Assembly (NCBI RefSeq): GCF_024741795.1
Contig: NZ_CP102950.1
Location: 1,922,001 to 1,986,000 of the forward strand
Reading direction: 5' to 3'
Length of the DNA stretch: 64,000 bases
DNA from: Arthrobacter sp. CJ23
Lineage (GTDB): Bacteria > Actinomycetota > Actinomycetes > Actinomycetales > Micrococcaceae
Of the stretch, positions 42,332-59,104 are shown piece after piece. How positions within the stretch are numbered: position 1 is the stretch's first letter; each line of letters starts with the position of its first letter. A model generated the notes under the pieces. The model was given only the letters and a program-made list of their open reading frames with translations, made no database searches and had not been told where the DNA came from. A program made the position numbers and the translations under genes.

Positions 42332-42503
42332 TTGAAGGTATCCTTTCAGTTCTTCGCCTATGGAGAAGAAGCGTTCATTCATAACGCATTGTCAATCGCC
42401 CTCTGGGGGTCGTCGGCGCGGGCAAGGCGGCTCGACGAGACCTCGCGCAGCCACGCCCCTTCTTGCCCAGGCGGGCCGCCGGACTAGTTGGCAATTAGTG
42501 TGC

Positions 42504-43916: not shown

Positions 43917-44100
43917 TGAACTCTCCATATTTTCACGTTTGTTGCGGAGGGGTATTGGACGATTTCCCGGACACCTGATGGGGTGTGCGGGAAATCGTCC
44001 GGCTGTAACTCGGCTCGACGGACAATCGACCGCCAAGACCAACAGCCAGAGCAGCTTGCAGCGGGGCAGAAGCTGATCCAGGCTCCCCATATTTCATAAA

Positions 44101-44161
44101 TGAGATCGGTTGCTGAGATCGGTTGCAAGCAACGATACGGATGAAAAGTGATCCTTGTCAA
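44101..44161 (-). promoter_or_regulatory. Promoter P1 with tandem TGAGATCGGTTGC operator (MHS transporter)
   Basis: Reading on the minus strand: TTGACA (44156-44161), an 18-base spacer, TATCGT (44132-44137), and then a 28-base block (44101-44128) of two adjacent 13-bp TGAGATCGGTTGC copies plus AA (given in plus-strand orientation). The operator covers the expected start point and downstream region, as in a repressor road-block. The block is shared with P2, P3 and P4. Confidence 0.75.
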
Positions 44162-44236
44162 CGTCTCGTGGGCTCGCGGCGCGGATATCGAAGACAGGCC
44201 TCCGACTCAGTGCCTAATCGCCTGACGGGGTTCACG

Positions 44237-44782
44237 TCAATCGACCGGAAGGGGCGCCTCATTGTTGAAGTCTTGGAAATGCACTCCTGACCAGGCGCAC
44301 TCCAGGCTGCCGTATACCGACCAGTAGTCATCCCAGTGGGCAAGTTTCCACTGGTCTCGCTCCAGTCCGCGGCGGGTGAGCCGCGTACGTAGAAGGTCTT
44401 GAGGTACCCGGACCCGTATTACGGTGATCGCCGGCGACGGCCATTGGAATTTCTCTGCCATGCGTCTCAGATAGTCTGGGTCTCCGAAATAGGCTCCAAA
44501 GGGAGCGTCAAGGACAACTGACCGGCCGAGACGCAGGTTTATCCCCGCCACGTCCATCAGAGTCTGGTACTCGAGGGGCAGCAAATTTCGGCGATAGTAG
44601 TCGTTGGACTCGCGGTCGCTGGGATCATGCCCGGTAGCGGTCAGCGCGAATTCGACGAAGCGGCCACTGACCCGGTCCTTGTCCAGGTACGCAGCCCCGT
44701 GCTCTTGTGCTGTTTGCTGGGCAATCGTTGTTTTCCCTGAGCCGGCAGGACCGATGACAATGAAGACTTTGGGGGCGGTCAT
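44237..44782 (-). CDS. Small P-loop kinase (gluconate-kinase-like AAA domain)
   Basis: A 181-residue P-loop protein with Walker A IGPAGSGKT near residue 9, AYLDKDRVSGRF, VVLDAPFG and a lid-like VRVPQDLLRTRLTRRGLERD. The size and motifs fit small sugar or sugar-acid kinases such as gluconokinase, but the family cannot be fixed. Its ATG overlaps the KDPG aldolase stop by 4 bases. A kinase feeding a phosphorylated 2-keto-3-deoxy acid to that aldolase is a reasonable inference. Confidence 0.75.
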   Translation of the reverse strand: MTAPKVFIVIGPAGSGKTTIAQQTAQEHGAAYLDKDRVSGRFVEFALTATGHDPSDRESNDYYRRNLLPLEYQTLMDVAGINLRLGRSVVLDAPFGAYFGDPDYLRRMAEKFQWPSPAITVIRVRVPQDLLRTRLTRRGLERDQWKLAHWDDYWSVYGSLECAWSGVHFQDFNNEAPLPVD

Positions 44783-45426
44783 TGGCGGGCCTCTGCTACA
44801 GCTGACAGGAACTCCTTGGCGGCCTCGGTGACGCGGGAGAAGTCGCCATCGGGTTGCCATGCTTTCGTCACGTAGCTGCCCACGCCGACGCCGGCCACGC
44901 CTGCCGCGAACCATTCGCCCACGTTCTCTACGGTTACGCCGCCAGCCGGCATGATCGGCAGATGCGCCAGCGGAGCCAGCACGGACTTCGCGTAGGAGAC
45001 TCCGCCGGCCTCTGTCGGGAAGAGCTTGATGATGTCGGCGCCTGCTTCGGCGGACTCAAGGAGCTCGGTTGGTGTATAGGCGCCGCTGATTGTCGGCACC
45101 TGGTACCGGTTTGCGGTACGGATCATCGCGGGGTTCAGCTGAGGACTGACGAGGAACTGAGCGCCGGCCCGAATGCATTCATACGCTGAGTGCTCGTCCA
45201 GCACTGTTCCGGCACCGATTGCCACTCCGGTGGAGCCGTGTTTGGCCGCGAGCCGACGGATCACGTCGACAGCGCCTGGAATTGAAAGCGTGATCTCGAG
45301 TGCCCGGAAACCTCCTTCGATAGCAGCTTCCGCAACGCGCTCGGCAACCTCCGCGTTCTCCAGCCGCACGATGAGGACGGCCCCTGACTCGTGGATGGTT
45401 TGCAGGGTGCGGAGTTTCTTGTGCAT
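44779..45426 (-). CDS. eda: KDPG/KHG aldolase
   Basis: A 215-residue class I aldolase that splits 2-keto-3-deoxy-6-phosphogluconate (or a 2-keto-4-hydroxy acid analogue) to pyruvate and an aldehyde. It has ALEITLSIPGAVDVI with the catalytic Glu, GAGTVLD, and the Schiff-base lysine in ADIIKLFPTEAGG, plus MPAGGVTVENVGEW. ATG 45426 follows GAGAGAGG. It is divergent from the MocA-LacI operon over 147 bases that contain promoter P2. It ties the region to sugar-acid breakdown. Confidence 0.88.
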   Translation of the reverse strand: MHKKLRTLQTIHESGAVLIVRLENAEVAERVAEAAIEGGFRALEITLSIPGAVDVIRRLAAKHGSTGVAIGAGTVLDEHSAYECIRAGAQFLVSPQLNPAMIRTANRYQVPTISGAYTPTELLESAEAGADIIKLFPTEAGGVSYAKSVLAPLAHLPIMPAGGVTVENVGEWFAAGVAGVGVGSYVTKAWQPDGDFSRVTEAAKEFLSAVAEARQ

Positions 45427-45496
45427 GTTGGCCTCTCTCTGGCCGGGTATCTCTTACTTCTTGAGCGACCCGACCCCTTGTTGGTGTTTAGTTCCG

Positions 45497-45555
45497 TTGA
45501 CAAACTCTCCCACCATCCATAGTGTTATTGCAACCGATCTCAGCAACCGATCTCA
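45497..45555 (+). promoter_or_regulatory. Promoter P2 with tandem operator (MocA-LacI operon)
   Basis: TTGACA (45497-45502), a 17-base spacer, TAGTGT (45520-45525), then the 28-base operator at 45528-45555, made of two copies of GCAACCGATCTCA (the complement of the P1 form). The operator ends just before the AAGGAGG ribosome site of the first gene. Since the operon includes the lacI-type gene, this implies autoregulation. Confidence 0.8.
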
Positions 45556-45573
45556 TGCAAGGAGGTATTGCGG

Positions 45574-46560
45574 TTGACTTACGTACGCACAATCATTCTT
45601 GGTGCTTCCCATTGGCATGTTCCGCTCTGCGCGCCGGCCATTGCCGAAGTGCACGAGGTGATCGGAGTCAGTGACGAGGATGTATCCCGCGTGCAGGTGC
45701 AGGACCTGGCCGAAGGCTGGGGGGCGCCGGTTGAAGCCGACTGGCAGAAGCTGGTTGATCTCCCTGATGTCGGACTTGCATATGTCTTTGGTCCCCATGA
45801 GGGTATGGCTGAAAAGTGTTTCGCCTTGATCGAGCGCAGTATTCCGTTCGTCGTGGAAAAGCCATTGGGCACTTCCCTTGACGAGCTTTCTGCCGTACGT
45901 CAGGCCGCCGAGGCTGCTGGCGTGCCTGTCACTGTCCCCCTGGTCCAGCGCGGCGGACCCACAGATCAGTGGCTTGCCAAGGCAGGACGGCCCGCTTACC
46001 AGCGAACCTCATTTATTGCTGGTCCACCATCCCGGTATCTCGATAATGCCAATCCCTGGATGCTCGACCCGGTCAAGGCGGGCGGGGGGTGTCTGGCGAA
46101 CCTGGGTCCACATTTTGTTGAGCTGTTCCTCAGGGGCAGCGGCGAGACTGCAGCACATGTGGACTCCCGGCTCTCATCGTTTCTTCACAGCCAGGCTGTC
46201 GAGGATCATGCCACCCTCATCATCACGACGCCGGAGGGACGCGAAGCCATAGTGGAAGTTGGCTATGCATTCCCTGGCTCGCCGCTTAAGCGCTACTGCA
46301 GCTTCACCTCGGTCGGTGAGGCAGGATTCGCCTCAGTTGATTCGGACGGTACAGCTACGTTCACGGCATTGGATGGCACCACGGAGGTCGACAAGATCAA
46401 TGTGGATAGCGACCCTCTTTACGATCCGTTCGTGCGCAGCGTCGCCCGGACGCTGGATGATGGATTCCGGGGCCTGCCGACGCTGGCCCAGCTCGAAAAT
46501 GTCATGCGCCCCATTTGGCAGGCCTATGACGACCAGCACGGAGGAAGAGAACATGCCTGA
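45574..46560 (+). CDS. Gfo/Idh/MocA-family oxidoreductase (1)
   Basis: A 328-residue NAD(P)-dependent sugar or cyclitol dehydrogenase family member. The Rossmann start is RTIILGASHWHVPL rather than the usual GxGxxG. The family's EKP motif is present in FVVEKPLG, and GGGCLANLGPHFVELF is the substrate-domain motif. The TTG at 45574 is preferred over the one at 45568 because AAGGAGG then has an 8-base gap. Its stop overlaps the start of the LacI gene (ATGCCTGA). First gene of a six-gene operon. Confidence 0.82.
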   Translation: MTYVRTIILGASHWHVPLCAPAIAEVHEVIGVSDEDVSRVQVQDLAEGWGAPVEADWQKLVDLPDVGLAYVFGPHEGMAEKCFALIERSIPFVVEKPLGTSLDELSAVRQAAEAAGVPVTVPLVQRGGPTDQWLAKAGRPAYQRTSFIAGPPSRYLDNANPWMLDPVKAGGGCLANLGPHFVELFLRGSGETAAHVDSRLSSFLHSQAVEDHATLIITTPEGREAIVEVGYAFPGSPLKRYCSFTSVGEAGFASVDSDGTATFTALDGTTEVDKINVDSDPLYDPFVRSVARTLDDGFRGLPTLAQLENVMRPIWQAYDDQHGGREHA

Positions 46561-47548
46561 TCTGAGTATCGACGTCGTTGCAAAAGCTGCCGGTGTCCAT
46601 CGGTCAACGGTCTCCCGGGCGTTCTCACGCCCTGAGGCGGTAAAGAGTGAAACACGCGAGCACATCCTCCGAGTCGCCGAGGAGCTTGGCTACACGATGA
46701 GTCCACTCGCCCAGGCCCTTCGGACAAAGACCAGCACGTTCATCCCGCTGATCGTGCCGGACATTACTAACCCCTTCTTTGCAGAACTTGCCAAGACGAT
46801 GACACAGGCCGCTGACGAGCGCGGATACCAGCTACTGCTCTGCGTCACCAACGGGGACCCGGCCAAAACCGACGGATACTTCACCGCCATGCAGGCCATG
46901 TATGCCCCCTTCGGCATCGTCGCGCCGTCCACAAAGGTCGATACCGAGGCCATGAAACGCTTCGACTTCGGCCACAAGGTTGTGGTGATCGACCGGGTTG
47001 AAGGGGACGATGCCGTCCCAACGGTCACCGTCGACAGCCGCCGCGGAATCATGATCGCCCTGGAGCACCTGCACTCTCTGGGGCACACCTCGATCGGCTA
47101 CGTATCCGGCATCGCCGGAACGCACACCGCCCAGGACCGGATGGACGCCTATTTGGAGCTGTCCGCCGAGAGCGGCAGCGCACCTGTCGTGCTGGACAGC
47201 GGGTCGGATCTGGATGCGGGCACGCGCGGGGCAGAACATTACCTCGAGATGGACAATCCTCCAACGGCAATTATCGCGGCCAATGACATGGTGGCCTTTG
47301 CTGTCATCTCGGCACTCGGCCAACGTGGCGTAAGGGTACCGGAGGACGTGTCGGTCATCGGCTTCGACGGTCTCGCTCTCGGCGCCCGGTTCAACCCTCC
47401 TCTGACCACGGTTCGCCAGCCGATTGCCGACATGGGACACATCGCCATCGAACTGGCTGAGAAGCAGAACATTGACGGCTCCGTGGACCACATCGTCCTC
47501 GAACCTCAGCTTCTGGTCCGCGGCTCCACCTCTGGACCACGCAAATGA
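46553..47548 (+). CDS. LacI-family transcriptional regulator
   Basis: A 331-residue LacI regulator: HTH and hinge at residues 1-60 (SIDVVAKAAGVHRSTVSRAF, ELGYTMSPLAQALRTK) and a periplasmic-binding-like sugar domain (IPLIVPDITNPFFAELA, YVSGIAGTHTAQDRMDAY, VIGFDGLALGARFNPPLTTV). ATG 46553 follows GGAGGAAG. It is the only DNA-binding regulator encoded between 41.5 and 59 kb. It is therefore the likely reader of the four shared tandem operators. Confidence 0.92.
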   Translation: MPDLSIDVVAKAAGVHRSTVSRAFSRPEAVKSETREHILRVAEELGYTMSPLAQALRTKTSTFIPLIVPDITNPFFAELAKTMTQAADERGYQLLLCVTNGDPAKTDGYFTAMQAMYAPFGIVAPSTKVDTEAMKRFDFGHKVVVIDRVEGDDAVPTVTVDSRRGIMIALEHLHSLGHTSIGYVSGIAGTHTAQDRMDAYLELSAESGSAPVVLDSGSDLDAGTRGAEHYLEMDNPPTAIIAANDMVAFAVISALGQRGVRVPEDVSVIGFDGLALGARFNPPLTTVRQPIADMGHIAIELAEKQNIDGSVDHIVLEPQLLVRGSTSGPRK

Positions 47549-48111
47549 CCAGGGGACAGGAGTCAACGCTCCGGCGCCTGCCAGGGCTCCAGCACACAGA
47601 CCATGTCGGCCTGACAGTGCCAAACCTTGAGGAAGGCATCCGCTTCTTCGTCGAAGTCCTCGGAGCTGAGGAGCTCTACCGCTCCGAACGCGGGCCCGAC
47701 GAAGAATTCATGCCCACAAATTTCGAAGTCCCGGCAGATGCCAAGCTCACGCTCGCAATGTTGCGCCTGCCACCAAACCTCAACATCGAGCTTTTCGAAT
47801 GGAGCAGCGCTGAGCGCCGTGATACCCCGCCGCGGCACTGCGACGCCGGCGGCCACCACTTGTGCTTCGTCGTGGACGACGTCGACGAAGCGATCGAAGT
47901 GCTGCAGGCAACACCTGGAGTACGCGTGCTCGGCGAGCGCAAAGAAGTCGCTGGCGACAGCCCCCGAGTAGCCGGCAATCGCTGGACATACTTCATCACC
48001 CCTTGGGGATTGCTGATGGAAATCGTGGATCGATCCCGCGTCGCAGCCCCGCCCCGGCTCGTCGGTCCCACGGACTGGGCAGCACCTCCAAACATTTCAG
48101 AAAGGACATAA
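47545..48111 (+). CDS. VOC-superfamily (glyoxalase-fold) protein (1)
   Basis: A 188-residue vicinal-oxygen-chelate protein: HTDHVGLTVPNLEEGIRFF (first metal His), NIELFEWSS (Glu), GGHHLCFVVDDVDEAI (second His) and GLLMEIVDR (second Glu). So a full metal site is present in one chain. Its ATG overlaps the LacI stop by 4 bases. Members act as lyases, epimerases or dioxygenases; here possibly an epimerase or lyase on a keto-sugar intermediate. The activity is unknown. Confidence 0.82.
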   Translation: MTRGQESTLRRLPGLQHTDHVGLTVPNLEEGIRFFVEVLGAEELYRSERGPDEEFMPTNFEVPADAKLTLAMLRLPPNLNIELFEWSSAERRDTPPRHCDAGGHHLCFVVDDVDEAIEVLQATPGVRVLGERKEVAGDSPRVAGNRWTYFITPWGLLMEIVDRSRVAAPPRLVGPTDWAAPPNISERT

Positions 48112-48114
48112 ACA

Positions 48115-49014
48115 ATGCGGCTTGCCGGTCACACACTAGGCACCCCGGACCACACGGTTCCCCAAGCACTTGATCTATTCCGAGCCGCAGGGCTCGATGC
48201 CGCCGAAGTCATCTACCAGAATGACTACAAATCAGGATTGCCATTAGGTGATCGGCGTGCCGCGATGGAGGCACTGGAAGCGGCCGAAAGCGCAGGGATA
48301 CCCATCGTGGGCCTGACGCCTTACACAACCGCCATCAACTCACTGGACGACGCGGAATGGCGCACAGCAGTCGATGAATTCCGTGGCGCCATAGAAACCG
48401 CACACCTGCTCGGCGCTGACCGGGTTCGTGTCTATGCTGGTTCGTGGCACCCCGGGGACAACGACCACGCGGCGCGTTGGGTAAAACTGCGTGAAGCATT
48501 GGAGACCCTCGCGCCTGAAGCAGACCAGGCCGGGGTTCGCCTTTGCGTGGAAAACCATTTCGGCACCATGACCCAGACCGCGGCGGACACCGCTGCCCTT
48601 GTCCGGGAAATTGCTCATCCGGCCGTCCGCGTTCTCTATGACCAGGCGAACCTGACATTCACCCACGACGAGACGTTCGAACAGGCCCTCGCTGTTCAAG
48701 GTGACCTGATCGGTCACGTTCACGTGAAGGACCTCGTCTTCACTGATCCCAACGCGGCCTTCCGCGCCACTGAAACAGCCCGGGTCAACGCTTCCGAGCG
48801 AGCCGTCCGGTCCCGCGTCGTCGGAAGCGGCGTCGTTCCATGGTCTCAAATTCTCGCCGGGTTGCTGCAGCATGGCTACGACGACGTGCTGAGCATCGAG
48901 CTCGAGTACCGTTGGCACCCGCAAGACCTCCCTGCGCCCGAGGACGGATTCCGCGAATCCGCCGCCGTCCTGCGCTCAATGCTCTCTGATCTGGCTAAAG
49001 TGAGGAACGCCTGA
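48115..49014 (+). CDS. Sugar phosphate isomerase/epimerase (TIM barrel)
   Basis: A 299-residue xylose-isomerase-like TIM barrel. VRLCVENHFGTMTQT, VRVLYDQANLTFTHDE, GHVHVKDLVFTD and DDVLSIELEYRWHP carry the metal ligands. ATG 48115 follows AAAGGA. The downstream MocA gene starts on its last base (TGATG), so translation is coupled. Together with the MocA proteins it suggests an oxidise-isomerise-cleave sequence on an unusual sugar. Confidence 0.85.
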   Translation: MRLAGHTLGTPDHTVPQALDLFRAAGLDAAEVIYQNDYKSGLPLGDRRAAMEALEAAESAGIPIVGLTPYTTAINSLDDAEWRTAVDEFRGAIETAHLLGADRVRVYAGSWHPGDNDHAARWVKLREALETLAPEADQAGVRLCVENHFGTMTQTAADTAALVREIAHPAVRVLYDQANLTFTHDETFEQALAVQGDLIGHVHVKDLVFTDPNAAFRATETARVNASERAVRSRVVGSGVVPWSQILAGLLQHGYDDVLSIELEYRWHPQDLPAPEDGFRESAAVLRSMLSDLAKVRNA

Positions 49015-50006
49015 TGAACACCACCCGTCTCCGTGTCGGAGTTGTCGGCGCGGGCAACATCGCCACCATTGCCCAATTACCCACCCTCGTACAACGCGAT
49101 GACGTTGAGTTGGCCGCTCTGGTGTCCCGGCGTGAGGATCCAGGCAATCTGGTCCGGCGCTGGGGCTTCAACGCCGCTTACAAAACAGTAGAGGACATGC
49201 TGGATTCGCAGGAGCTGGACGCAGTCTTCGTCCTCACGCCGCGGTCCGAGCACGCCCACGCCGTCCAGTTGTGCCTGAGCCGTGACGTCGACGTGTTCTG
49301 CGAAAAGCCATTGGCCCCGGCAACCGATGAAGCAGAACGTCTGGCAGACCTCGCCGACGAGCGGGGCCGCATCCTGATGGTGGACTTCAACCGCCGCTAT
49401 GCGCCCGTCTATACCGCCGGCCGGGAAGTCTTTGGCGCCAAAGGCGCCACCTTCTGCGTCGCCCAGAAAAACCGCCCTGGATCGGAATACCGTGCGACAT
49501 TCGAGAACGCCATTCACATGGTCGATCTCCTCCGCTGGTACTGCGGCGGCGAGCCGGTGGACGTCGCCGCGCACGCCGCCGGTGACGACCCTTGGGAAGA
49601 AGACGGCGTCGCAGCAACTATCCGCTTCAGTACCGGGAACACGGGCGTCCTGATGGCAGCCCGTACGGCAGGTGCATGGAACGAAAAATTGGACGCCTAC
49701 GGCGACGGAAAGACCGTCGAAGTCAGGGCACCGGAGACGGTTTCGACCACTGTCAAGGGTGTCACCACATCGCGGGAACTTAGCGCCGAAGCCTATGGCT
49801 GGGCTACTGCGACAGACACTCTGGGATTTTCGGCCGCCGTTCATCATTTCCTTGACCGGGTTGCTGACAGGGCGCAGCCGCTTACCTCAGGCCGGGAAGC
49901 TGTCCATACCCAACGCTTGCTCGACCGGATTCTCGCTGCCGCCGGTTTGCCGACAGAAGAGCAAGCCGGTCGGGAATGGGCCAGCCACGCAGTAAACGGA
50001 AGCTAA
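49014..50006 (+). CDS. Gfo/Idh/MocA-family oxidoreductase (2)
   Basis: A 330-residue NAD(P)-dependent dehydrogenase with RVGVVGAGNIATIAQLP, VFCEKPLAPATDEAERL and NRPGSEYRATFENAIHMVDL, where the conserved catalytic-region His lies in the last block. The start overlaps the isomerase stop. The sequence differs clearly from MocA (1), so the two probably act at different steps or positions of the substrate. Confidence 0.88.
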   Translation: MNTTRLRVGVVGAGNIATIAQLPTLVQRDDVELAALVSRREDPGNLVRRWGFNAAYKTVEDMLDSQELDAVFVLTPRSEHAHAVQLCLSRDVDVFCEKPLAPATDEAERLADLADERGRILMVDFNRRYAPVYTAGREVFGAKGATFCVAQKNRPGSEYRATFENAIHMVDLLRWYCGGEPVDVAAHAAGDDPWEEDGVAATIRFSTGNTGVLMAARTAGAWNEKLDAYGDGKTVEVRAPETVSTTVKGVTTSRELSAEAYGWATATDTLGFSAAVHHFLDRVADRAQPLTSGREAVHTQRLLDRILAAAGLPTEEQAGREWASHAVNGS

Positions 50007-50242
50007 CAACCAAACGAGCTCTCCCATTCTCCATTGCACTTCCAGTCCTTGATGCGGGCACTGAGGAACCGTGGCTTGAACAAACCTGCTGAAAAGACGG
50101 AGGTGCAAACATAGCTCTATTTCGCCTGCGTCAGGGCAGACCACACATCGGGGGAGCGGGGAGACAGCCGTTACGGGGCCGGCTCGCCGCGCTTGCCGGC
50201 ATCCTGCTGGTCGCGTTCAGCGCCAGAGAAGCGGTTTCGGCG

Positions 50243-51397
50243 GTGTCCCCGCTCCTTGGTCCAATAAGCGAGGACCTTCCCCTCGACGCGGTGACGACAG
50301 GGATCCTTGGGATGCTGCCGACCGCCGGCTTCGCAGTGATGGGCTTCCTGGCTCCGCCGCTCCTCCGGCGTATCGAGCTGGAACACCTGCTACTGGTCTC
50401 GATCCTGCTGACAACATTTGGTCAGGTCGGCCGCGCACTGGGATGGAACATCCCGGCATTCTTGGTGTTCACCTGGATCGCGATGCTCGGGATCGGGGTG
50501 GTCAATGTGGTGATTCCGCCTCTGCTGATGAAGTACTTTCCCGACAAGACCGGGATCCTGGCAACGCTCCACATCACTCTCCTGGGCGCCAGCACGGCTG
50601 TGGCCGCCCAATCTGCCATACCCCTGGGCAATCTTTATGGCTGGCGGTTCTCCATCGGCATCTGGGCGGCCGTCAGCGCGGTCGCTGCGATGCCTTGGCT
50701 GATTCTTCTTGCAGGTAAGCGGACTGTTGCCCGCTCCAAGACATCACCAGCCCACGATGGGCCGTCTCCTCCTGCGAACGCGATCAAACCCTGGAGATCA
50801 TCAATTGGCTGGGGTGCAGCACTGATCTTCGCTGGTTGCTCGAGCAATACTTTTGCGGCGCTCAGTTGGCTTCCGGCTGTTCTTGTCGACAGAGGAATGA
50901 GTCAGGAAACCGCTGGATCCATGCTGGCGCTCTATTCAATCCTCACCGTGCCTGTCGCCCGGATTGTGCCCCTGGTAGTGGTGAGAATGCCTCGCCCGCC
51001 ACCCGTCGCAATCCTGTTTGTCGTCGCATTCGCCATCGGTTACGGAGGCATCATTTTTGCTCCACCAGCCTCTGCAGTGGTCTGGGTCGTCATAGCTGGC
51101 CTTGGCCAAGGCGCGTACTCCTTCGCGTTCACGATGATCAATAAGCGAACACGAACGCAATCCGGCTCAGGGATCCTATCCGGGTTCGCCCAGGGAGTGG
51201 GCTACGCCCTCGCGAGCGTTGGCCCGTTCCTTTTTGGGCTCCTGCATCATCCAGGGGACGGCTGGCTGCCCTCGTTTGGCATGCTCGGAGCCTGGCTCGC
51301 GGTGCTTTCGGTAGGAGCCGTGATGGTCGACAAGCCGCGCTTGCTCGAAGACGCCTTCCGGGTTGCACGCCCAGGCGCCAACGAAGCAAGAAACTGA
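50243..51397 (+). CDS. MFS transporter (CynX/NimT-like); start uncertain
   Basis: From the first standard start (GTG 50243) the gene gives 384 residues, but that cuts the first membrane helix in half. The frame is open back to 50093. The stretch RLAALAGILLVAFSAREAVS before the GTG is the normal first helix of this MFS family. There is no ATG, GTG or TTG in that part. A strong GGAGGT stands 6 bases before an ATA at 50111, which would give 428 residues. The rest shows 11 further membrane segments. It is the last gene of the P2 operon, probably a sugar or acid carrier. Confidence 0.8.
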   Translation: MSPLLGPISEDLPLDAVTTGILGMLPTAGFAVMGFLAPPLLRRIELEHLLLVSILLTTFGQVGRALGWNIPAFLVFTWIAMLGIGVVNVVIPPLLMKYFPDKTGILATLHITLLGASTAVAAQSAIPLGNLYGWRFSIGIWAAVSAVAAMPWLILLAGKRTVARSKTSPAHDGPSPPANAIKPWRSSIGWGAALIFAGCSSNTFAALSWLPAVLVDRGMSQETAGSMLALYSILTVPVARIVPLVVVRMPRPPPVAILFVVAFAIGYGGIIFAPPASAVVWVVIAGLGQGAYSFAFTMINKRTRTQSGSGILSGFAQGVGYALASVGPFLFGLLHHPGDGWLPSFGMLGAWLAVLSVGAVMVDKPRLLEDAFRVARPGANEARN

Positions 51398-51489
51398 TGC
51401 AGAGCCCGGCTGCAGCAAGTCACAAAACCGAAATAATCTACGCAGACAACGAGAACGCCTGGCCCCCGAAACCCGAACCACATAGATCA

Positions 51490-51577
51490 TTGACAGATCC
51501 TTCTTGGGACCATAAGTTTATTGCAACCGATCTCAGCAATCGATCTCACTGACACTAAAAGAACGTAACCGATCTCA
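51490..51577 (+). promoter_or_regulatory. Promoter P3 with tandem operator (MocA-SDR-VOC unit)
   Basis: TTGACA (51490-51495), a 17-base spacer, TAAGTT (51513-51518), then the tandem operator at 51521-51548 (second copy with one change, CAATCGATC). A third half-site, TAACCGATCTCA, follows at 51566-51577, just before the ribosome site of the leader ORF. Same architecture as P1, P2 and P4. Confidence 0.8.
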
Positions 51578-51590
51578 AGGGAGAGACATT

Positions 51591-51641
51591 ATGGTCAACT
51601 GCTTTGTCCCTGGCATCATCTTCGGCGTACCGACATCATGA
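51591..51641 (+). CDS. 16-residue leader ORF coupled to MocA (3)
   Basis: MVNCFVPGIIFGVPTS follows the ribosome site AAGGGAGAG. Its TGA overlaps the ATG of the next gene (ATGA). The downstream MocA gene has no ribosome site of its own, so this short frame probably delivers ribosomes to it. No function of the peptide itself is suggested. Confidence 0.45.
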   Translation: MVNCFVPGIIFGVPTS

Positions 51642-52663
51642 CGGCGACGGCACATGGCCCGCGCGTCGCCGTCGTGGGGGCGGCTGGCTGGGCCGGATCA
51701 CGGCACGCGCGGGCATTCGCTGCGGCAGGTGCCAATGTCACCATCCTTGTGGAGAACGACGGGCGCGGCGTTGCCCTCGCTCAGGAGCTGGGCGCACAGC
51801 TGGTGCCCAGTACCGCGGAACTACACCCCGAAGACTTGGACCTGGTAGTCGTAGCGCTACCGACCACCATGCAACCGGCCATATGCGCAGACCTGCTGAA
51901 CAGGGGATTCCGAGTGTTGACTGAAAAGCCGGTGGCCGCAGATGCCGAGGGTGCTGCCGTCCTGGCTGCCGCTTGGGGCGTTAACGAGAGGCTCATGGTC
52001 GGGTATACGCTCCACCAACATCCCGCCGGCACACTTGTCTCTCAATGGATCAGGAACAAGAACGTGATCGCCGTGTCTGTTCGTTCCGTCGCCCATAAAC
52101 AGAACGTCCACTCATGGCGCGCTGACCCGAAGGAGGGCGGCGTCGCTGTAGTGAATGGCATTCACGCCATCGAATTAGTCTCATCGTGGTTTGACGGCTA
52201 CCCGAAAGTACTGGCCAGCAGCGCCAGCAGCAGCCTCTATGGGTCACCGGTACCGGAGCACGTCGTCTCCACCCTCGAATTTCCTGAGGGCGTCATATTC
52301 ACCATGCAGAGCTACTGGTCTCCCTGGAAGGAACCTCAAGGCCTCAATCAGGGCGACTGGAGCCTCACCATCGACGTCCTGGCCACTGAGGGCCGGATGT
52401 TATGGTCCAACGACTCCCTTCACGTGTGGGAGCGTGACGGTGGCCAGTATGACACGACCTTCGAGCCCTCCGACCTCTTCCTTCGCCAAGCTGAGATGGC
52501 GCTGAAGTTTTGCACGGGTGGAACCCCTGCAGTCACATTCGCCCAGGCACTCCGCGCTACGGAAATCGCCGATGCAGTCCTGGCAGCCGCAACATCCAGA
52601 GCTGAAGGCATGGTCGCCCCGTCGCATCACCAAAAACCTGAACAACAGGCAACCGTCGACTGA
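51638..52663 (+). CDS. Gfo/Idh/MocA-family oxidoreductase (3)
   Basis: A 341-residue dehydrogenase with VAVVGAAGWAGSRHARAF as the Rossmann start, LTEKPVAADAEGAAVL for the EKP motif, and GGVAVVNGIHAIELV in the substrate domain, where the His lies. The start at 51638 overlaps the stop of a 16-codon leader ORF. It is the first main gene behind promoter P3. It is more distant from MocA (1) and (2) than a recent duplicate would be. Confidence 0.85.
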   Translation: MTATAHGPRVAVVGAAGWAGSRHARAFAAAGANVTILVENDGRGVALAQELGAQLVPSTAELHPEDLDLVVVALPTTMQPAICADLLNRGFRVLTEKPVAADAEGAAVLAAAWGVNERLMVGYTLHQHPAGTLVSQWIRNKNVIAVSVRSVAHKQNVHSWRADPKEGGVAVVNGIHAIELVSSWFDGYPKVLASSASSSLYGSPVPEHVVSTLEFPEGVIFTMQSYWSPWKEPQGLNQGDWSLTIDVLATEGRMLWSNDSLHVWERDGGQYDTTFEPSDLFLRQAEMALKFCTGGTPAVTFAQALRATEIADAVLAAATSRAEGMVAPSHHQKPEQQATVD

Positions 52664-52688
52664 ACAGCCCTAATTAAGGAACTTAGAC

Positions 52689-52760
52689 ATGAAGCGAGCA
52701 ACTCACGCTCCGACCGCAGGAGAACCGCGGCGCAGCCGCATCCAGAGTGGGGAAAACTGA
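52689..52760 (+). CDS. 23-residue leader ORF coupled to SDR
   Basis: ATG 52689 after AAGGAAC opens a basic 23-residue frame whose TGA overlaps the SDR ATG (TGATG). Same arrangement as the ORFs at 51591 and 53669. It may be a coupling leader or chance; the peptide has no recognisable features. Confidence 0.35.
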   Translation: MKRATHAPTAGEPRRSRIQSGEN

Positions 52761-53509
52761 TGAGCCTCAAAGACCAGGTGGTTCTGGTAACCGGATCGAG
52801 CGGGGGAATCGGCGATGCTGCTGTCAGCGCATTCACAACTGCAGGCGCCATCGTCGTCGGCGCTGATCGTTCCCCCAAGGAGGATCAGGCGCTGGGGGCC
52901 TTCTATCCTCTCGACATCACGTCCGAGCAACAATGCGCAACGGCTATCCAGGACATCAAAGCCAGATTCGGCCGCATCGACGTCCTCGTCCATGCAGCAG
53001 GAGTGCTCGGCACCACGCCGGACATTATGGAGACAACCACAGAAGAGTTCGACTCCATTCTGAGGATCAATGCCTCTGCAACGTTCTCGATGGTACGAGA
53101 GACTGCAAAGTCAATGCTTGAGTCCGGCACGGCCGGCGCCATCGTGGTCTTATCCTCCGTCGCGGCCAAAGAAGCACGCCTGAACTACCTGCCTTATAAC
53201 GCGAGCAAGCTCGCAGTCCTACACATCATGTGGTCATTCGCAGAATTACTCGGGCCTCAGGGCATCTCCGTCAACGCCGTCGCACCAGGCCCGGTGAACA
53301 CACCCATGTGGGCACAGTTTGCCAAAGATTCAGGCCCGGATGCGGCTGCCAACCGGGCGAAGAGGGCAGCGCAACTGCCGATGCGCCGGTTTGCCGAACC
53401 CGACGAAGTCGCCCGCGCCATCCTTTTTCTGACCGATCCCGACAACCGCTACATCACCGGAGTGTCTCTCGATGTGGCTGGCGGAGCACACCTGGGAATA
53501 GGAACCTGA
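52760..53509 (+). CDS. Short-chain dehydrogenase/reductase
   Basis: A 249-residue SDR with VVLVTGSSGGIGDAAV, HAAGVLG in place of NAG, VVLSSVAAKE, catalytic YNASK, and ITGVSLDVAGGAHLG at the end. It lies 97 bases downstream of MocA (3) in the P3 unit. It likely reduces or oxidises a hydroxyl of the same substrate family; specificity is unknown. Confidence 0.87.
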   Translation: MSLKDQVVLVTGSSGGIGDAAVSAFTTAGAIVVGADRSPKEDQALGAFYPLDITSEQQCATAIQDIKARFGRIDVLVHAAGVLGTTPDIMETTTEEFDSILRINASATFSMVRETAKSMLESGTAGAIVVLSSVAAKEARLNYLPYNASKLAVLHIMWSFAELLGPQGISVNAVAPGPVNTPMWAQFAKDSGPDAAANRAKRAAQLPMRRFAEPDEVARAILFLTDPDNRYITGVSLDVAGGAHLGIGT

Positions 53510-53668
53510 ACCCCCTGTACCGTGCCTCGCAGTCGTAGAGGCCATCACGCACCTTTTGCGGGTGGCAACCCAGCGTACACATACGCCAGGCAAACTCAGC
53601 ACCGACCCCTCAAGCTGTGTCTGAGCAACCCCAGCGAAATTTCAGTCCAAAACTATGAGGAGAAGCCT

Positions 53669-53725
53669 ATGTCCGTTCTTTGGTCCCAGTTCAAGCCTTC
53701 GGGGATGTTTAGGCGGGAGAAATGA
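53669..53725 (+). CDS. 18-residue leader ORF coupled to VOC (2)
   Basis: MSVLWSQFKPSGMFRREK follows GAGGAG at 7 bases. Its TGA overlaps the ATG of the VOC gene (ATGA). Third case of a short frame ending on the next start in this unit. Confidence 0.45.
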   Translation: MSVLWSQFKPSGMFRREK

Positions 53726-54186
53726 AAACTGCAATTCGACATCATCACACTGCCCTGCACGTTACGGACATGGAGCGCAGCGCACGGTTCTACGTGGAAG
53801 GGCTTGGCCTTGTCCGCTTGAAAGCGTGGACATCGGGCCCATACGTCGGCGAACTTTACGGCCGTCCGGACGTTAAGGTCAAAGCACTAATGCTCTCAAC
53901 GGGTGACGGTACCTTCAACTTGGAGCTGGTCCAGGTTGAAGATCCGCCACCGGCCGTTAACCCATCAGAGGCGCAGCCGGGGACTGCACATCTTGCTTTT
54001 ACCGATATTGACCTGCGCAAGGTTTACGCCAGAATGACAGCGCTCGGGTACAGCGCTTTGTCCGAACCGGTCGCACCTACGTCGGGCCCGGTTGCAGGAG
54101 GCTTGCTGATCTACCTGCTCGATCCAGACGGAAATCGTGTGGAGCTAATTCAGCCGCCAGACTGGCCGCCAAGCGACAACTCTTGA
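53722..54186 (+). CDS. VOC-superfamily (glyoxalase-fold) protein (2)
   Basis: A 154-residue VOC protein: RHHHTALHVTDMERSARFY (His), FNLELVQVED (Glu), GTAHLAFTDIDLRKVYARM (His) and GNRVELIQPPDWPPS (Glu). This is the lactoylglutathione-lyase/methylmalonyl-CoA-epimerase pattern with all four metal ligands. It is the last gene of the P3 unit. A lyase or epimerase role in the sugar pathway is inferred from context only. Confidence 0.85.
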   Translation: MKTAIRHHHTALHVTDMERSARFYVEGLGLVRLKAWTSGPYVGELYGRPDVKVKALMLSTGDGTFNLELVQVEDPPPAVNPSEAQPGTAHLAFTDIDLRKVYARMTALGYSALSEPVAPTSGPVAGGLLIYLLDPDGNRVELIQPPDWPPSDNS

Positions 54187-55065
54187 GCTATCCGCACCCG
54201 GGTAAAGATGCTCGGAGTGCCTAGCGCCAGCTAACCAGACTGGGCAAACCAGGGGAAACAGCGCATGGAACGAGGAGCGCGGCTTTAAGATTCCGGAAGG
54301 GGTCCTCCACTCATCAAACGAGCCTTGAGTCTTTTCGATAGCAATGACACCTTTGCCGAGAAGGCCGATATATTGGCAAGTCCGTGGCATGGACTTGCTG
54401 CGACACCTGATGGTTTGGCTCGCGTGAGGACAGAAGGCGTCCCCTGTGCCTGCTATCCCAAGAGCAGTCGACCTTCAGCGGCTGGCACGGCAACATGACT
54501 CAAACCCTGTCCTTTCGCAAAAAACGGTACACGGACGCGGACTGTAGTCTGGTCCTCGCCCTCTTAACGGTGAGCACGGTTTAAGAGGGCGAGGTAGTGG
54601 TACCTGTTCGGGAGCCGCTTGTGGTGGGCGAGCAGTAGGCTGGGCCTGTGTTCCGCATATCGACTGTTTGGTACATGATTCAGCGCTTCGTGGGTGAGGG
54701 GATCTCCCCGACGCGTCGCAAGGTTGCTGCGACACATGCAGGAATGGTCTAGGGAGCGCTGCCAGGCTTCGCGCAAGATGTGGCTACCCCCTGCATCCCT
54801 GAAGCTCCTGCTATTCGGCCCGCGGCATCACGCGGGTGGCAGTTGGATCCCATCGTGTGGGGGGTGAGATCTGGTTGCTCGTGGGACCGTAGGAGCACTT
54901 TGAGAAGCCATGCCCGTATGCTCGGGTCCCTAATGAACTCTGCCGTTTCGTAGCGGTTCATCGATTGAGTTACGGGTTGCAGATGATCCTAACCTCAGCA
55001 GTGCGGGTGAGGTAAGGCCTGCCGAAATAGCCGAACAGGGTTCATAGCTGGAGTGGCTGCCTGCC
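54187..55065. other. Gene-free decay zone
   Basis: No supported gene. Short open frames on both strands lack family similarity. The hairpin at 54554-54594 is the only clear structure. It connects the P3 unit to the ROK and isomerase remnants. Confidence 0.4.
54554..54594. terminator. Inverted repeat, 14-bp arms
   Basis: CCTCGCCCTCTTAA and its exact complement TTAAGAGGGCGAGG flank a 13-base loop. It lies 368 bases beyond the VOC (2) stop and has no T-run, so it may be a weak terminator or a remnant of a mobile element end. Confidence 0.35.
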
Positions 55066-55395
55066 TTAAAGGTCCAGGACCTTCTTGAACTGCTTTTTTG
55101 TTTCGCTTGGCAGCAACCTGCCCAGATTCTCAAGCTCGAGCCCAGCGCCGACCCTCAGAGGGGACTTTGCAATTGCCGGTCCGCCACTCAAGGCGACGAG
55201 ACACCCCTTGTTTCCGCAAATACACGGAAAATCTACGCCGCGTTGAATGGGGATGTGTCCAATGGCGCCAGCAGTGCCCTTGATTCCGCGAAGCGGAGTA
55301 CCACGGTCAATCAGCCCTGCGCCAATGCCGGTGGAAGATTCAACAGCGATCATTTTCGTCGCGGCAGGCCTCAACAGGTGTTCGCCGTCCCCCAA
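55066..55395 (-). pseudogene. ROK-family sugar kinase/regulator remnant
   Basis: On the minus strand the frame shows the ROK core: MIAVESSTGIGAGLIDRG, AGAIGHIPIQ and the zinc motif CICGNKGCLVAL. It lacks the N-terminal ATP-binding or HTH part and most of the C-terminus, about 110 of some 400 residues. A decayed fragment of a sugar kinase or NagC-type repressor. Confidence 0.65.
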
Positions 55396-55439
55396 GAGCG
55401 GGAGTCGACGCTGGCTTCGTGGCGGAATTCGAGCTCATT

Positions 55440-55577
55440 TCCAGCGCCAGGTCTCAAGACGGTCTCCGGAGACGGCGATTTAAGGCCGTCGTAGCCCCAT
55501 CCTGAGGCGAGCTTGCCGTCTTCGTCGAGGGGAAGATTGGCCCACTGGCCGGTGGGCAGGGCGTTCGGGCGGTGCAT
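55440..55577 (-). pseudogene. TIM-barrel isomerase N-terminal remnant
   Basis: ATG 55577 after a good GAAGGAG begins PTGQWANLPLDEDGKLASGW, then GYDGL. That is the N-terminus of a sugar phosphate isomerase/epimerase (typical form TGQWADLPLEEL). Similarity is lost within about 45 codons and the frame runs into the ROK remnant. A truncated gene. Confidence 0.5.
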
Positions 55578-55592
55578 TGGTCAGGCTCCTTC

Positions 55593-55620
55593 GTTGGCGT
55601 TGGCGTTGGTGTTGGTGTTG
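55593..55620. repeat. GTTGGY hexamer tandem repeat
   Basis: About 4.7 copies of GTTGG(C/T) just upstream of the isomerase remnant. A short tandem array prone to slippage; no role assigned. Confidence 0.5.
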
Positions 55621-55715
55621 AATGAGCGCATTCGGCCCCCGCGGGTACTTAAGACGCGGGCTGAGGGGCTTGTCAGAGTTTAGGGATTGCAGTTCCGGTG
55701 GGTTGGTCGCGAAAG

Positions 55716-55757
55716 GGCACGCCACATGACCGCTTGGAAGCGGCCATGTGGCGTGCC
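55716..55757 (-). terminator. Hairpin terminator downstream of sugar ABC operon
   Basis: GGCACGCCACATG and CATGTGGCGTGCC form a 13-bp stem that continues with a further near-complete CCGC/GCGG stem around TTGGAA. It starts 40 bases after the stop of the last permease gene, and a CCTTTC run follows on the minus strand. Likely transcription terminator for the ABC transporter operon. Confidence 0.6.
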
Positions 55758-55796
55758 TTTCTGGGTTGGGCCTGGGCAGCAGAACTCTTGCTGTAG

Positions 55797-56657
55797 TTAT
55801 CCCTTGACACCACCGGACGTCATGCCGGCAACAAACCAGCGCTGGAAGGCCAGGAAGATTGAGAGAACGGGGATGAAAGCAACGACGATGAATGCAGCGA
55901 AGAGTCCCCAGAAGCTACCGAAGCCCGTGGTTATATACCGCACGATGCCGTTCTGGACGGTCTTCATGTCTTCTGTGGTGGCGAGGACGGTGCCTACAAG
56001 GAAGTCGTTCCAAACGAATACGAAGATGAAGATGGCTACAGCAGCGATACCGGGACGGATGAGTGGGAGGATGATTCGCCACAAGATCTGTATCCGGGAG
56101 CAGCCATCGATTGCGGCCGCTTCCTCAATCTCGACGGGTATGTTTTCGATGAAGTTGCGAAGAAACAGGATGGTCTGTCCACAAATGATGGCCGTGTAGA
56201 CGACGATCAGCATCGGGTACGTGTTGATTAAGGCGGTTTTGACGAACATGGAGTACAGCGCGATAAAGACCACGATTGCCGGAACCATCGATAGGACCAG
56301 GATCCCGGTCATGAGAGTTTCCATGCGGCGGCTTCGGTATCTGGTGGCAACGTATGCTGCAGGAATGGAAATCGCCAACGCGAGGGCGATGGAACCGCCA
56401 GCGTAGATGAGGGAGTTAATAAAAAACCGGATGTTCGTTGACGTCAGCAGGCCCGCATAGCCCTCGAATGAGATCGGGTCCGGAATCCATCTTGGCGGGA
56501 ACTCAAGGGTATCCGAGGCCGTTTTCAGCGAGGTGGATACGATCCATGCGACAGGCGGTAGAACGATCGCAGCTGAGAGGGTGACGTATGCCCAGGCCGG
56601 AACCGCCCGAAGGACCGCGCCGACGCGGCCTTGGCGTCGTGAAGTTGTGGTGCTCAC
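55797..56657 (-). CDS. Carbohydrate ABC transporter permease (MalG type)
   Basis: A 286-residue permease with six membrane segments and the ATPase-docking EAA loop EEAAAIDGCSRIQILWRIILP. It starts with GTG 56657 after GGAAGGAAAG, overlapping the stop of the other permease gene by 4 bases (GTGA). No ATPase gene is in the operon, so a shared MsiK-type ATPase encoded elsewhere is expected, as is usual in Actinobacteria. Confidence 0.9.
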   Translation of the reverse strand: MSTTTSRRQGRVGAVLRAVPAWAYVTLSAAIVLPPVAWIVSTSLKTASDTLEFPPRWIPDPISFEGYAGLLTSTNIRFFINSLIYAGGSIALALAISIPAAYVATRYRSRRMETLMTGILVLSMVPAIVVFIALYSMFVKTALINTYPMLIVVYTAIICGQTILFLRNFIENIPVEIEEAAAIDGCSRIQILWRIILPLIRPGIAAVAIFIFVFVWNDFLVGTVLATTEDMKTVQNGIVRYITTGFGSFWGLFAAFIVVAFIPVLSIFLAFQRWFVAGMTSGGVKG

Positions 56658-57586
56658 AGGCTTTCCTTCCGTCGGAAGCGAATCGCGACAAGAGTGAGGA
56701 CAATATTTACGGCAAAAAGGAGGATAGCCGTTGCTGATGCCCCGGAGAGATCGAACTTGTCGAACATCTGGTTGTATACCCGCATTGACAGCGTCTCGGT
56801 CGATCCGATGGGACCACCTCGTGTCGTCACCAGGATGATGGTGACCATCTGTACATAGAGCATGAGTAGAACGATCACCACGGAGACGATGGTGTTGCGC
56901 AGGTGAGGCAAAGTGATGTTGACAAATGCGTGCCGGATCCCCCCGCCGTCCACTCTGAGGCTTTCGTACAATTCCTCTGGAATGGTTTGAAGGGCGCCGA
57001 GAAAGAGAAGCATGGCTTGCGGGTAGGACCACCACGCTGTCATCAGAGTCACGGCAACGAGCGCACTATTCGGGGACGAGAAGACATCAGTAGGACCGAA
57101 CCCTAGGGATTTGGTGATAGCTGAGGCCGGCCCGTAATTGGGGTTGAGAAACCAAAGCCAGATTGTTCCTGCTGTGGCCTGGGACATAAGCCACGGCAAC
57201 AGGAAGAGGCTGCGGACGGAGCGCTTGAATCGGTGCAGGTTGTTCAGCACAAGTGCAGACAAGAGTCCCGCGGGCAAGGCAATGACCAGCGCCCCGAGCG
57301 AAAATACAAGGGTTGTCCAGATGCGGGCGGGCAGATCGGAGTCGGAGAACAGCTTGGTAAAAGAGTTCAGACCGGAGAATTTTCCGATCTGGTAATACGA
57401 AGTCTCGTGAAGGGCTGTCCATGCCGTGTAGATGAGCGGTCCAACAAATACAAAGAGGAACACGGCAGTGACGGGGACGACGTACAACCAGACCGTGCGG
57501 TCCTTACGAGCCCGGCGGAGAGCCTGGATGCCTGTGGGTGGAGTGGCCGTCTGAGATGAAGTGCGGGTTGGGCTGTTTGTTGACAT
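56654..57586 (-). CDS. Carbohydrate ABC transporter permease (MalF type)
   Basis: A 310-residue permease. The short cytosolic N-terminus is followed by six membrane segments and an EAA loop ELYESLRVDGGGIRHAFVNI. ATG 57586 follows GGGAGAG. It lies 57 bases downstream of the binding-protein gene; the intervening gap is almost filled by a strong hairpin. Confidence 0.9.
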   Translation of the reverse strand: MSTNSPTRTSSQTATPPTGIQALRRARKDRTVWLYVVPVTAVFLFVFVGPLIYTAWTALHETSYYQIGKFSGLNSFTKLFSDSDLPARIWTTLVFSLGALVIALPAGLLSALVLNNLHRFKRSVRSLFLLPWLMSQATAGTIWLWFLNPNYGPASAITKSLGFGPTDVFSSPNSALVAVTLMTAWWSYPQAMLLFLGALQTIPEELYESLRVDGGGIRHAFVNITLPHLRNTIVSVVIVLLMLYVQMVTIILVTTRGGPIGSTETLSMRVYNQMFDKFDLSGASATAILLFAVNIVLTLVAIRFRRKESL

Positions 57587-57596
57587 TATCTCTCCC

Positions 57597-57634
57597 TTCC
57601 GGGGGGAGCCTGATTTTTCAGGCTCCCCCCGGAA
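57597..57634 (-). terminator. Intercistronic hairpin between binding-protein and permease genes
   Basis: Perfect 17-base arms (57597-57613 and 57618-57634) with a TTTT loop in the 57-base gap. Such structures behind solute-binding-protein genes commonly protect the upstream mRNA or partly stop transcription, giving more binding protein than permease. Confidence 0.75.
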
Positions 57635-57643
57635 TGTTGGGGG

Positions 57644-58900
57644 CTATTTCTTGTTGGCCGCATCCTGGGCGGAACGGATAAATTCGCTGCCCGATGTACC
57701 GTTGAGGTTCAGTTTCTGTCCGGCCTGGGAGAGCCCGGTGGCCAGCGAGGTCCAGTTATTGGAGTATGTGCGGGGTTTGCTGTTGCTCTTGACGTAGGCG
57801 GCGATGTCGTTCACCGTTTTCGCTTCGGGCGTGGAGAAGAATGGCTGCTCATAAGTGGCGGCGCGTGTGGGGACCTCGCCGCCGGTGGCCATCTTTGCGC
57901 CGGCTTCGGGACCGGTCATGTACTCGATGAACTTCCAGGCCGCCTCTGTGTGCTTGCTTCCCGAGCCTATTCCCAGAGTCCACCCGATGGTGGTGCCGGT
58001 GGTGTCTCCAGCAGACGCCTTTGGCAGGGAGGTCCACTTGAGGTCCGGGTTCTGCGAGGCGAAGGAAACGGCTCGTTCCGTGCCGAGGACTGCCATTGCG
58101 ACAGTGCCGCTGGCCATGCCGTCTGCTACGGTGCCGTACGTATCGGAAACGACATTGCTACCAAGAGCCTTTGCGTCCCGGAGTTTGCTCAGGAAGTTGC
58201 CAAACTCCTCGCCCTTCTTTGTCGCAAAATCTGCCTGTCCGTCCCCAGTCCATATTTCCTGGTCGACCTGCGTCATGAAGCAGTTGAAGAAAGTGCTGAT
58301 GATGGCTGAATTGTCAGTGTCCGAGAACCCGGTTCCGAACCCGGTGAATCCAGCTGCGGCAGCTTTTCGTGCAACGTCGACGACTTCCTCGTAGGTGGTT
58401 GGAGTGGCCGCACCGATCTGAGAAAGAATTTTCTGGTTGTAGTACAGCGCGCAGGTGCGGTATTCATAGGGCACCGCGACCTGCTTGCCGTCAGGTCCAG
58501 CGAGAGTGTCGGTGGGGCGAAGCCAGTCAGTGACCTTGGAGGCAGCATCAGGCAGCGGCGAGTAGACGCCGGCGCCGGCCATTTGGGGGACGATCGGGGT
58601 GAACATCTTAAATACATCCGGCGTCTGGCCGGCCGCTGCTGACTGCGGCAGCCTGTTCAGCATATCGCCCAGAGAAACCACCGAGAGATTGATCTTAATG
58701 TCAGGGTTTGCCGCCTCGAAGTTGGCGATGTTTTCCTTCAGTGCCTTTGAGCGGGGGTTGGCTTGGCTGGGATCGAGGAAGTCCCAGTAGTTCAGTGTCA
58801 CCGGCCCCCCAGATTGCGGAGTTGAGGGGGAGCAGCCGCTGAGGGCAAGGCTAGCTACGACTGCTGTGACGAGTGCTAAGCCCCATCGCTTCTTGATCAT
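57644..58900 (-). CDS. Carbohydrate ABC transporter, substrate-binding lipoprotein
   Basis: A 418-residue family-1 sugar-binding protein. Signal peptide MIKKRWGLALVTAVVASLAL precedes the lipobox Cys at residue 23 (SGCSPS). TLNYWDFLDPSQ and GWTLGIGSGSKHTEAAWKFI are typical of the family. ATG 58900 follows AGGAG; the long upstream frame is not coding. First gene behind promoter P4, which carries the regulon operator, so uptake is co-controlled with the MocA operons. Confidence 0.92.
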   Translation of the reverse strand: MIKKRWGLALVTAVVASLALSGCSPSTPQSGGPVTLNYWDFLDPSQANPRSKALKENIANFEAANPDIKINLSVVSLGDMLNRLPQSAAAGQTPDVFKMFTPIVPQMAGAGVYSPLPDAASKVTDWLRPTDTLAGPDGKQVAVPYEYRTCALYYNQKILSQIGAATPTTYEEVVDVARKAAAAGFTGFGTGFSDTDNSAIISTFFNCFMTQVDQEIWTGDGQADFATKKGEEFGNFLSKLRDAKALGSNVVSDTYGTVADGMASGTVAMAVLGTERAVSFASQNPDLKWTSLPKASAGDTTGTTIGWTLGIGSGSKHTEAAWKFIEYMTGPEAGAKMATGGEVPTRAATYEQPFFSTPEAKTVNDIAAYVKSNSKPRTYSNNWTSLATGLSQAGQKLNLNGTSGSEFIRSAQDAANKK

Positions 58901-59020
58901 GTATTTCTCCTGTGTGCGGGGTTGCTGATGCGGGAGCATGCCGTACTCAAAACGACGCCTGCTGAATGTGGGGCTACCGAAGGTCCGGGGATGAGCCAGG
59001 TGATCATCGAGTCTCTCCTT

Positions 59021-59104
59021 TGAGATCGGTTGCATTAATGAACAGTGAGATCGGTTGCTGAGATCGGTTGCAATAAACATAGGACTGCAGGAAGGCTCTG
59101 TCAA
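59021..59104 (-). promoter_or_regulatory. Promoter P4 with tandem operator plus extra half-site (sugar ABC operon)
   Basis: Minus strand: TTGACA (59099-59104), a 17-base spacer, TATGTT (59076-59081), then the 28-base tandem operator at 59046-59073 and a third TGAGATCGGTTGC copy at 59021-59033. Like P3, it has three half-sites. The mRNA leader would be about 170 bases. Confidence 0.8.

Follow-up and report, generated by a model that had tools for sequence, protein, structure and literature searches.

We analysed a 64,000-nucleotide stretch of the soil bacterium Arthrobacter sp. CJ23 (contig NZ_CP102950.1, positions 1,922,001 to 1,986,000), referred to here as the window. It carries a gene cluster, apparently for the catabolism of a sugar-type compound, that is served by four promoters, P1 to P4, each followed by tandem copies of the 13-base pair (bp) sequence TGAGATCGGTTGC (Table 1). 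The enzymes of the cluster comprise two SDRs, two TIM-barrel isomerases, three MocA oxidoreductases, two VOC proteins, a kinase-like protein and a KDPG-type aldolase; for transport it has an MHS carrier, an ABC importer and an MFS carrier; and it encodes a LacI-family regulator (called LacI below), which is the sole match to a DNA-binding family among the cluster proteins scanned. In the explanation that fits the whole of the data best and that we regard as likely, P1 to P4 would constitute one local regulon, repressed by the cluster's own, probably dimeric LacI, with paired overlapping 14-bp operators that would be filled by two dimers.

Table 1. Promoters, operator arrays and genes of the cluster; coordinates are positions in the window.
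Feature	Coordinates	Strand	Details
P1 core promoter	44132..44161	-	TTGACA 44161-44156, 18-bp spacer, TATCGT 44137-44132
P1 operator array	44101..44126	-	GCAACCGATCTCA x2 as read on the - strand, exact matches
P2 core promoter	45497..45525	+	TTGACA 45497-45502, 17-bp spacer, TAGTGT
P2 operator array	45530..45555	+	two exact 13-mers
P3 core promoter	51490..51518	+	TTGACA 51490-51495, 17-bp spacer, TAAGTT
P3 operator array	51523..51548	+	unit 2 with one mismatch
P3 third copy, GTAACCGATCTCA	51565..51577	+	one mismatch, 29 bp past unit 2
P4 core promoter	59076..59104	-	TTGACA 59104-59099, 17-bp spacer, TATGTT
P4 operator array	59046..59071	-	two exact 13-mers
P4 third copy	59021..59033	-	exact, 25 bp past unit 2
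SDR, past the TIM-barrel isomerase on the P1 side	40552-41343	-	open reading frame list
TIM-barrel isomerase, next past the MHS carrier	41510-42382	-	open reading frame list
MHS-type MFS carrier, first gene past P1	42504..43916	-	NCBIfam TIGR00883, 340 bits (cut-off 443)
AAA_33 kinase-like protein and KDPG/KHG aldolase	44237..45426	-	divergent from P2; profile matches
Gfo/Idh/MocA oxidoreductase (MocA1), first gene past P2	45568..46560	+	Pfam PF01408/PF22725
LacI-family regulator, 331 amino acids (P0001), proposed regulator of P1-P4	46553..47548	+	PF00356, PF13377, co-occurrence
VOC protein, TIM-barrel isomerase and second MocA (MocA2), remainder of the likely P2 operon	47545..50006	+	profile matches
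MocA (MocA3, 51638-52663), SDR and VOC genes past P3	51638..54186	+	profile matches
Sugar ABC importer past P4: solute-binding protein (ATG at 58900) and two permeases	55797..58900	-	PF01547, PF00528

An earlier note on this DNA had described four promoters, each with a TTGACA box, a spacer of 17-18 bases, a -10 box and tandem copies, plus a third copy at P3 and P4, and this observation is confirmed; the gap from the -10 box to the first 13-mer is 4-5 bases. Two details change: the operator, given there as 28 bases, is an array of 26 bp (27-28 with flanking bases included), and the two copies are identical except at P3, where unit 2 (GCAATCGATCTCA) has one mismatch. In the window TGAGATCGGTTGC occurs eight times exactly and twice with one mismatch, both times at P3, and a single two-mismatch match lies inside a coding region at 56469. 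Matches with up to two mismatches number 11 in the window against 2.00 expected (standard deviation 1.24), a count reached by none of 100 shuffles. The whole genome of 4,628,024 bases contains eight exact copies, every one of them at P1-P4, and none of the reversed control; allowing one mismatch raises the number of places to 11, of which 10 lie at P1-P4, and allowing two raises it to 84, versus 27 for the reversed control. A genome-wide search for the tandem, as the note had proposed, finds it confined to the four promoters. The P3 (51450-51551) and P4 (59043-59144) promoter regions are mutually inverted and 79% alike across 102 nucleotides, which points to a promoter duplication, one region probably having been copied from the other.

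LacI scores 42.9 bits against PF00356 (cut-off 27), 116.7 against PF13377 (26.5) and 79.5 against PF00532 (22.2). Against the NCBIfam models of E. coli GntR (NF011563; 64.4 bits, cut-off 433) and CytR (NF008269; 166.3 bits, cut-off 436) it falls short of orthology. Aligned to 1lbg, it matches chain residues 6-314 of 360 and lacks the tail through which the E. coli protein forms tetramers; tetramer-mediated looping is therefore not expected, and the protein is probably a dimer.

The tandem and this LacI occur in the same genomes. A survey of the genus covered 198 genomes. With up to three mismatches allowed, 44 of them contain the 26-bp tandem, whereas the control gave no hit, and a comparison of lists by eye shows that the genomes with a LacI orthologue (E up to 1e-60) are these same 44. 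Both are absent from the other 154, and all 20 listed of these contain other LacI-like candidates. At the level of the order, LacI was found in three of 347 genomes and the tandem in two of these three, the third (G354, an Actinotalea) being without the consensus; at the level of the class each was found in one of 394 genomes, the window's own, which is uninformative. We further compared loci, the best 80 of 231 from a scan of named genomes: 50 with LacI orthologues (L069-L118) and, as controls, 30 with other LacI proteins from other phyla (L119-L148), 30-38% identical to the query. Copies spaced by exactly 13 bp are present in 47 of the 50 orthologue loci and in none of the 30 controls, which total 532,902 bases, about half of the 977,705 bases in the orthologue loci. 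The genus survey and the locus set are not independent, since many of the 50 loci come from genomes that are also among the 198. By name, eighteen orthologue loci lie outside the Arthrobacter group, for example in Sinomonas, Nonomuraea, Amycolatopsis, Streptomyces, Actinomyces, Cellulomonas, Rathayibacter and Rothia. In a tree of LacI proteins the 50 orthologues form one clade (support 100/100, with long-branch warnings), in which Actinotalea is placed beside the remaining 49 (96/94). Inspection by eye found a MocA-family gene before LacI in all 50 loci. LacI is present in two copies, with MocA1 and arrays, in Pseudarthrobacter GA104, Arthrobacter P2b and Arthrobacter ISL-85 (loci L084 and L086; L085 and L093; L080 and L091). 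The restriction of the tandem within the genome and its co-occurrence with LacI support what had been suggested from the window, namely a single regulon of P1-P4 with LacI as its likely regulator; judged by sequence, the regulon and the assignment of LacI are well supported but not proven.

At no more than three mismatches per unit, 92 arrays were collected from the 47 loci, 81 double and 11 triple (three adjacent units at 13 bp); this limit places the diverged arrays of L069, L109 and L116 outside the counts. A TTGACA-like box precedes all 92 arrays by 24-29 nucleotides on the same strand (89 exact, three with five of six bases), whereas exact TTGACA occurred in 0.48% of shuffled upstream sequences. 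The distance from the -10 box to the array is 3-5 nucleotides in 89 of 92 arrays; since the -10 box is the best-fitting one among spacers of 16-19, these -10 statistics are fitted. The same-strand homologue past the array is MocA1 in 41 cases, MHS in 34, the solute-binding protein in 11 and MocA3 in five, together 91, with the remaining array at a contig end. The array is thus locked to a promoter in one orientation and fronts different pathway genes in different lineages. Seventeen of the 92 arrays have additional, non-adjacent copies at distances of 26-32 bp. An aldolase-kinase operon adjoins an array and points away from it in 44 of the 50 orthologue loci (by eye), whether the gene on the opposite side is MocA1, MHS or the ABC importer, and an array in this position may control both directions.

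Judged by its bases, each 13-bp copy is a degenerate LacI-type inverted repeat, i.e. one CG-centred 14-bp LacI site, and the array looks like a direct repeat because two such sites overlap by one base pair at a distance of 13 bp. The first 14-mer (halves TGCAACC and GATCTCA) has a central CG, ends in TG and CA and contains four complementary pairs out of seven in the consensus; other registers of the array reach four out of eight, so that counting symmetry by register is weak by itself and not decisive. The substitutions found in the 92 arrays are the stronger evidence. The three mismatched pairs comprise six positions, at which 44 cells depart from the consensus (C5T 27, A8G 2, C10T 4, T11G 11); all 44 fit the consensus partner and 42 are complementary to the actual partner. 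These cells are not independent events but come from about a dozen lineages, counted by eye, and the most informative of them is T11G, C-to-T changes being frequent in any case. Twenty changed cells at matched pairs break symmetry (T0C 1, G1A 2, G7A 1, C12T 5, A13G 2, A13T 9), of which the nine A13T fall on the base common to two units and complete the first pair of the next unit. This common base is A in 82, T in nine and G in one of the 92 arrays, A completing site 1 and T completing site 2, a pattern expected if both overlapping sites matter. A near-perfect palindrome (six of seven pairs) replaces the unit in Actinotalea (L069), and the second unit of L114, from a Streptomyces, is perfectly palindromic over its inner 12 bp.

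Overlaps of this kind have been described. In a survey of the LacI family, from which, as from the other papers cited here, we draw on excerpts, intersite distances peak at 13, 22 and 32 bp (Ravcheev et al., 2014; PMC4052901). According to these excerpts, overlaps of about 13 bp between LacI sites precede 110 operons and are conserved for GntR, a central CG is the mark of even LacI operators, and the 13-bp arrangement is hard to square with structures, so that DNA unwinding may take part; work cited there found it functional at E. coli gntK. Like the arrays studied here, gntKU has two CG-centred GntR sites that overlap at exactly 13 bp (GTTACCGATAACA/GTTACCCGTAACA), and the gntK array, ATGTTACCGATAACAGTTACCCGTAACAT, has T before the first site and A at the junction; unlike them, its sites have a different sequence and are near-perfect palindromes, and LacI scores below the GntR cut-off. 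With the published 13-bp class our arrays share the intersite distance, two sites about 13 bp apart before one operon, but the motifs in that survey were sought as palindromes, whereas the units here are strongly asymmetric with one orientation, and three adjacent units occur here as well. Sites of CcpA have flexible spacers (PMC5263246), and a Pseudomonas GntR of the LacI family has a different motif (PMC12195362). In openly licensed literature we met no work on this LacI group, its motif or its strict spacing, and the matches listed for stretches of the 13-mer included, by title and abstract, none on this operator. The direct repeats had been taken as a sign of a possibly new recognition mode, a view that the data do not support: 42 of the 44 changed cells leave a complementary pair, palindromes occur in Actinotalea and one Streptomyces, and the 13-bp overlap is already published for the family and seen at E. 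coli gntK. The tandem is a known, mechanistically unexplained architecture with a recognition mode of known kind, and the LacI group described here is a new orthologous group within that kind, unusually strict and sometimes with three adjacent sites.

In the mechanism that we propose, each promoter would present two (three in some relatives) 14-bp LacI operators, TGCAACCGATCTCA, that have one base pair in common, lie with their centres 13 bp apart and span the likely transcription start directly downstream of the -10 box. Counted from the -10 box, the start should fall inside the first unit, so that occupancy would block RNA polymerase. Two dimers, rotated by about 90 degrees, would fill the pair, an inducer from the pathway would release them, and the extra copies 25-32 bp off at some promoters would serve as auxiliary operators. 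Binding by LacI, repression rather than activation, joint occupancy of both sites and the inducer are elements that we infer from the sequences. A crude geometry with assumed radii gives, for dimers 13 bp apart, an angle of 86 degrees and separations of about 36 Å between the inner headpieces and about 89 Å between the cores, which indicates neither an obvious clash nor contact and agrees with the remark in the excerpts of PMC4052901 that dimers at 13 bp cannot interact. It is conceivable, although we are inclined to doubt it, that LacI dimers stack every 13 bp, about 90 degrees apart, and cooperate via kinking and unwinding of the DNA, not via protein contact, while the conserved asymmetric right half sets the order in which the sites fill, starting at the promoter and moving outward. 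If true, this would be a filament-like cooperative binding of LacI without structural precedent in the papers examined.

Several observations weigh against paired palindromic operators read by LacI. The orientation of the array to the promoter is identical in all 92 cases, although a purely palindromic reading would not call for this. Only three of six inner pairs are complementary in 163 of 195 units, so that the units are lastingly asymmetric, and the right half remains TCTCA in most units (position 11 is T, in departure from symmetry, in 184 of 195), while more symmetric right halves occur in relatives. In one unit of L115 two symmetry-restoring changes hit the same pair and cancel. The three orthologue loci missing in the 13-bp test, inspected by hand afterwards, depart from the plain pattern: in Pedococcus (L109) the spacing is 13 bp and unit 2 is worn, carrying changes that do not restore symmetry (GCAATCGATATTT); in Rothia halotolerans (L116, 8906-8931) the sites are 12 bp apart, a natural one-base variant; and in Actinotalea caeni (L069, 11079-11127), where LacI has S at residue 17, near-palindromic sites spaced by 22 and 13 bp lie between lacI and the next gene. 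G at unit position 11 goes with K at residue 17, in the recognition region of LacI, in five of five loci and with R in two of 42 (Fisher's test, 1.4e-5), but this amounts to two or three independent pairs (sign test, p 0.5), and we do not lean on the covariation. Lastly, since lacI and the operators belong to the same cluster and are physically linked, co-occurrence alone cannot set LacI apart from the other cluster genes.

Among the alternatives, the one that fares best holds that the two overlapping sites are never occupied at the same time: a single dimer would use either register, and the second copy would raise the chance of binding near the start. The sites do have one base pair in common, and the excerpts of PMC4052901 place the overlap in the zone of specific contacts. 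A choice between registers needs no exact spacing, however, so that the rigid 13 bp of 47 of the 50 loci (12 bp in one), set against the variable 26-32 bp of non-adjacent copies, counts against it, and the crude geometry shows no obvious clash of two dimers; we therefore think it rather unlikely. Alternatively, in a CytR-like or new mode, a dimer might read the GCAACC of two successive units as direct half-sites, which would suit asymmetric units with one conserved orientation to the promoter; CytR, also of the LacI family, reportedly binds direct repeats that have 1-bp spacers, although in the excerpts of that report its repeats are half-sites acting with CRP and those here are full sites (PMC3454398). 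As an indirect test of one half-site per repeat we compared the halves, and both are conserved, GATCTCA on the right about as well as the left. A two-fold dimer on each unit explains the symmetry-restoring changes, the near-perfect palindromic units of L069 and L114 and the shared base, as direct half-sites do not, and we consider the latter improbable. That another protein, such as another of the genome's many LacI proteins, regulates the sites while the arrays merely travel with the cluster would fit the linkage of arrays and LacI and the second, unrelated LacI (27-28% identity) close by in three orthologue loci (L092, L101, L118), but it is very improbable given the genus genomes that have other LacI-like candidates and neither array nor LacI, the lack of a further DNA-binding match among the cluster proteins scanned and the way in which arrays track the LacI clade across several families.

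With regard to the pathway, ten cluster proteins were scanned with NCBIfam. None of them reached an equivalog cut-off in the families shown; the aldolase is above one subfamily cut-off, TIGR01182. A sequence search of the PDB gave no match at E up to 1e-10 for the isomerase at 48115-49014; for MocA2 its matches were confined to a dehydrogenase and putative oxidoreductases. One relative, Paenarthrobacter LG01 (locus L070), degrades levoglucosan according to PMC10066097, and levoglucosan was considered as the substrate and rejected: MocA1 and MocA2, the two oxidoreductases compared, score 24.8 and 41.8 bits against levoglucosan dehydrogenase (NF052479, cut-off 650). The start of the MHS carrier was chosen at 43916; the longest open reading frame starts at 44090. 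Transposases of the ISL3, DDE_Tnp_1 and Mutator types stand on both flanks of the cluster (38905-40242, 59276-59866, 60693-61958), and together with its presence in 44 of the 198 genus genomes this suggests a catabolic island that is gained or lost.

The 13-bp pair thus recurs over a wide actinobacterial range, in double, triple and, in Rothia, 12-bp variants and with a LacI without tetramer tail, and its strict spacing and fixed orientation to the promoter make the question posed by the 13-bp arrangement a testable one. This LacI group is a clean natural set for learning how one base pair can be shared by two LacI dimers, and its operators offer convenient access to an uncharacterised sugar pathway.

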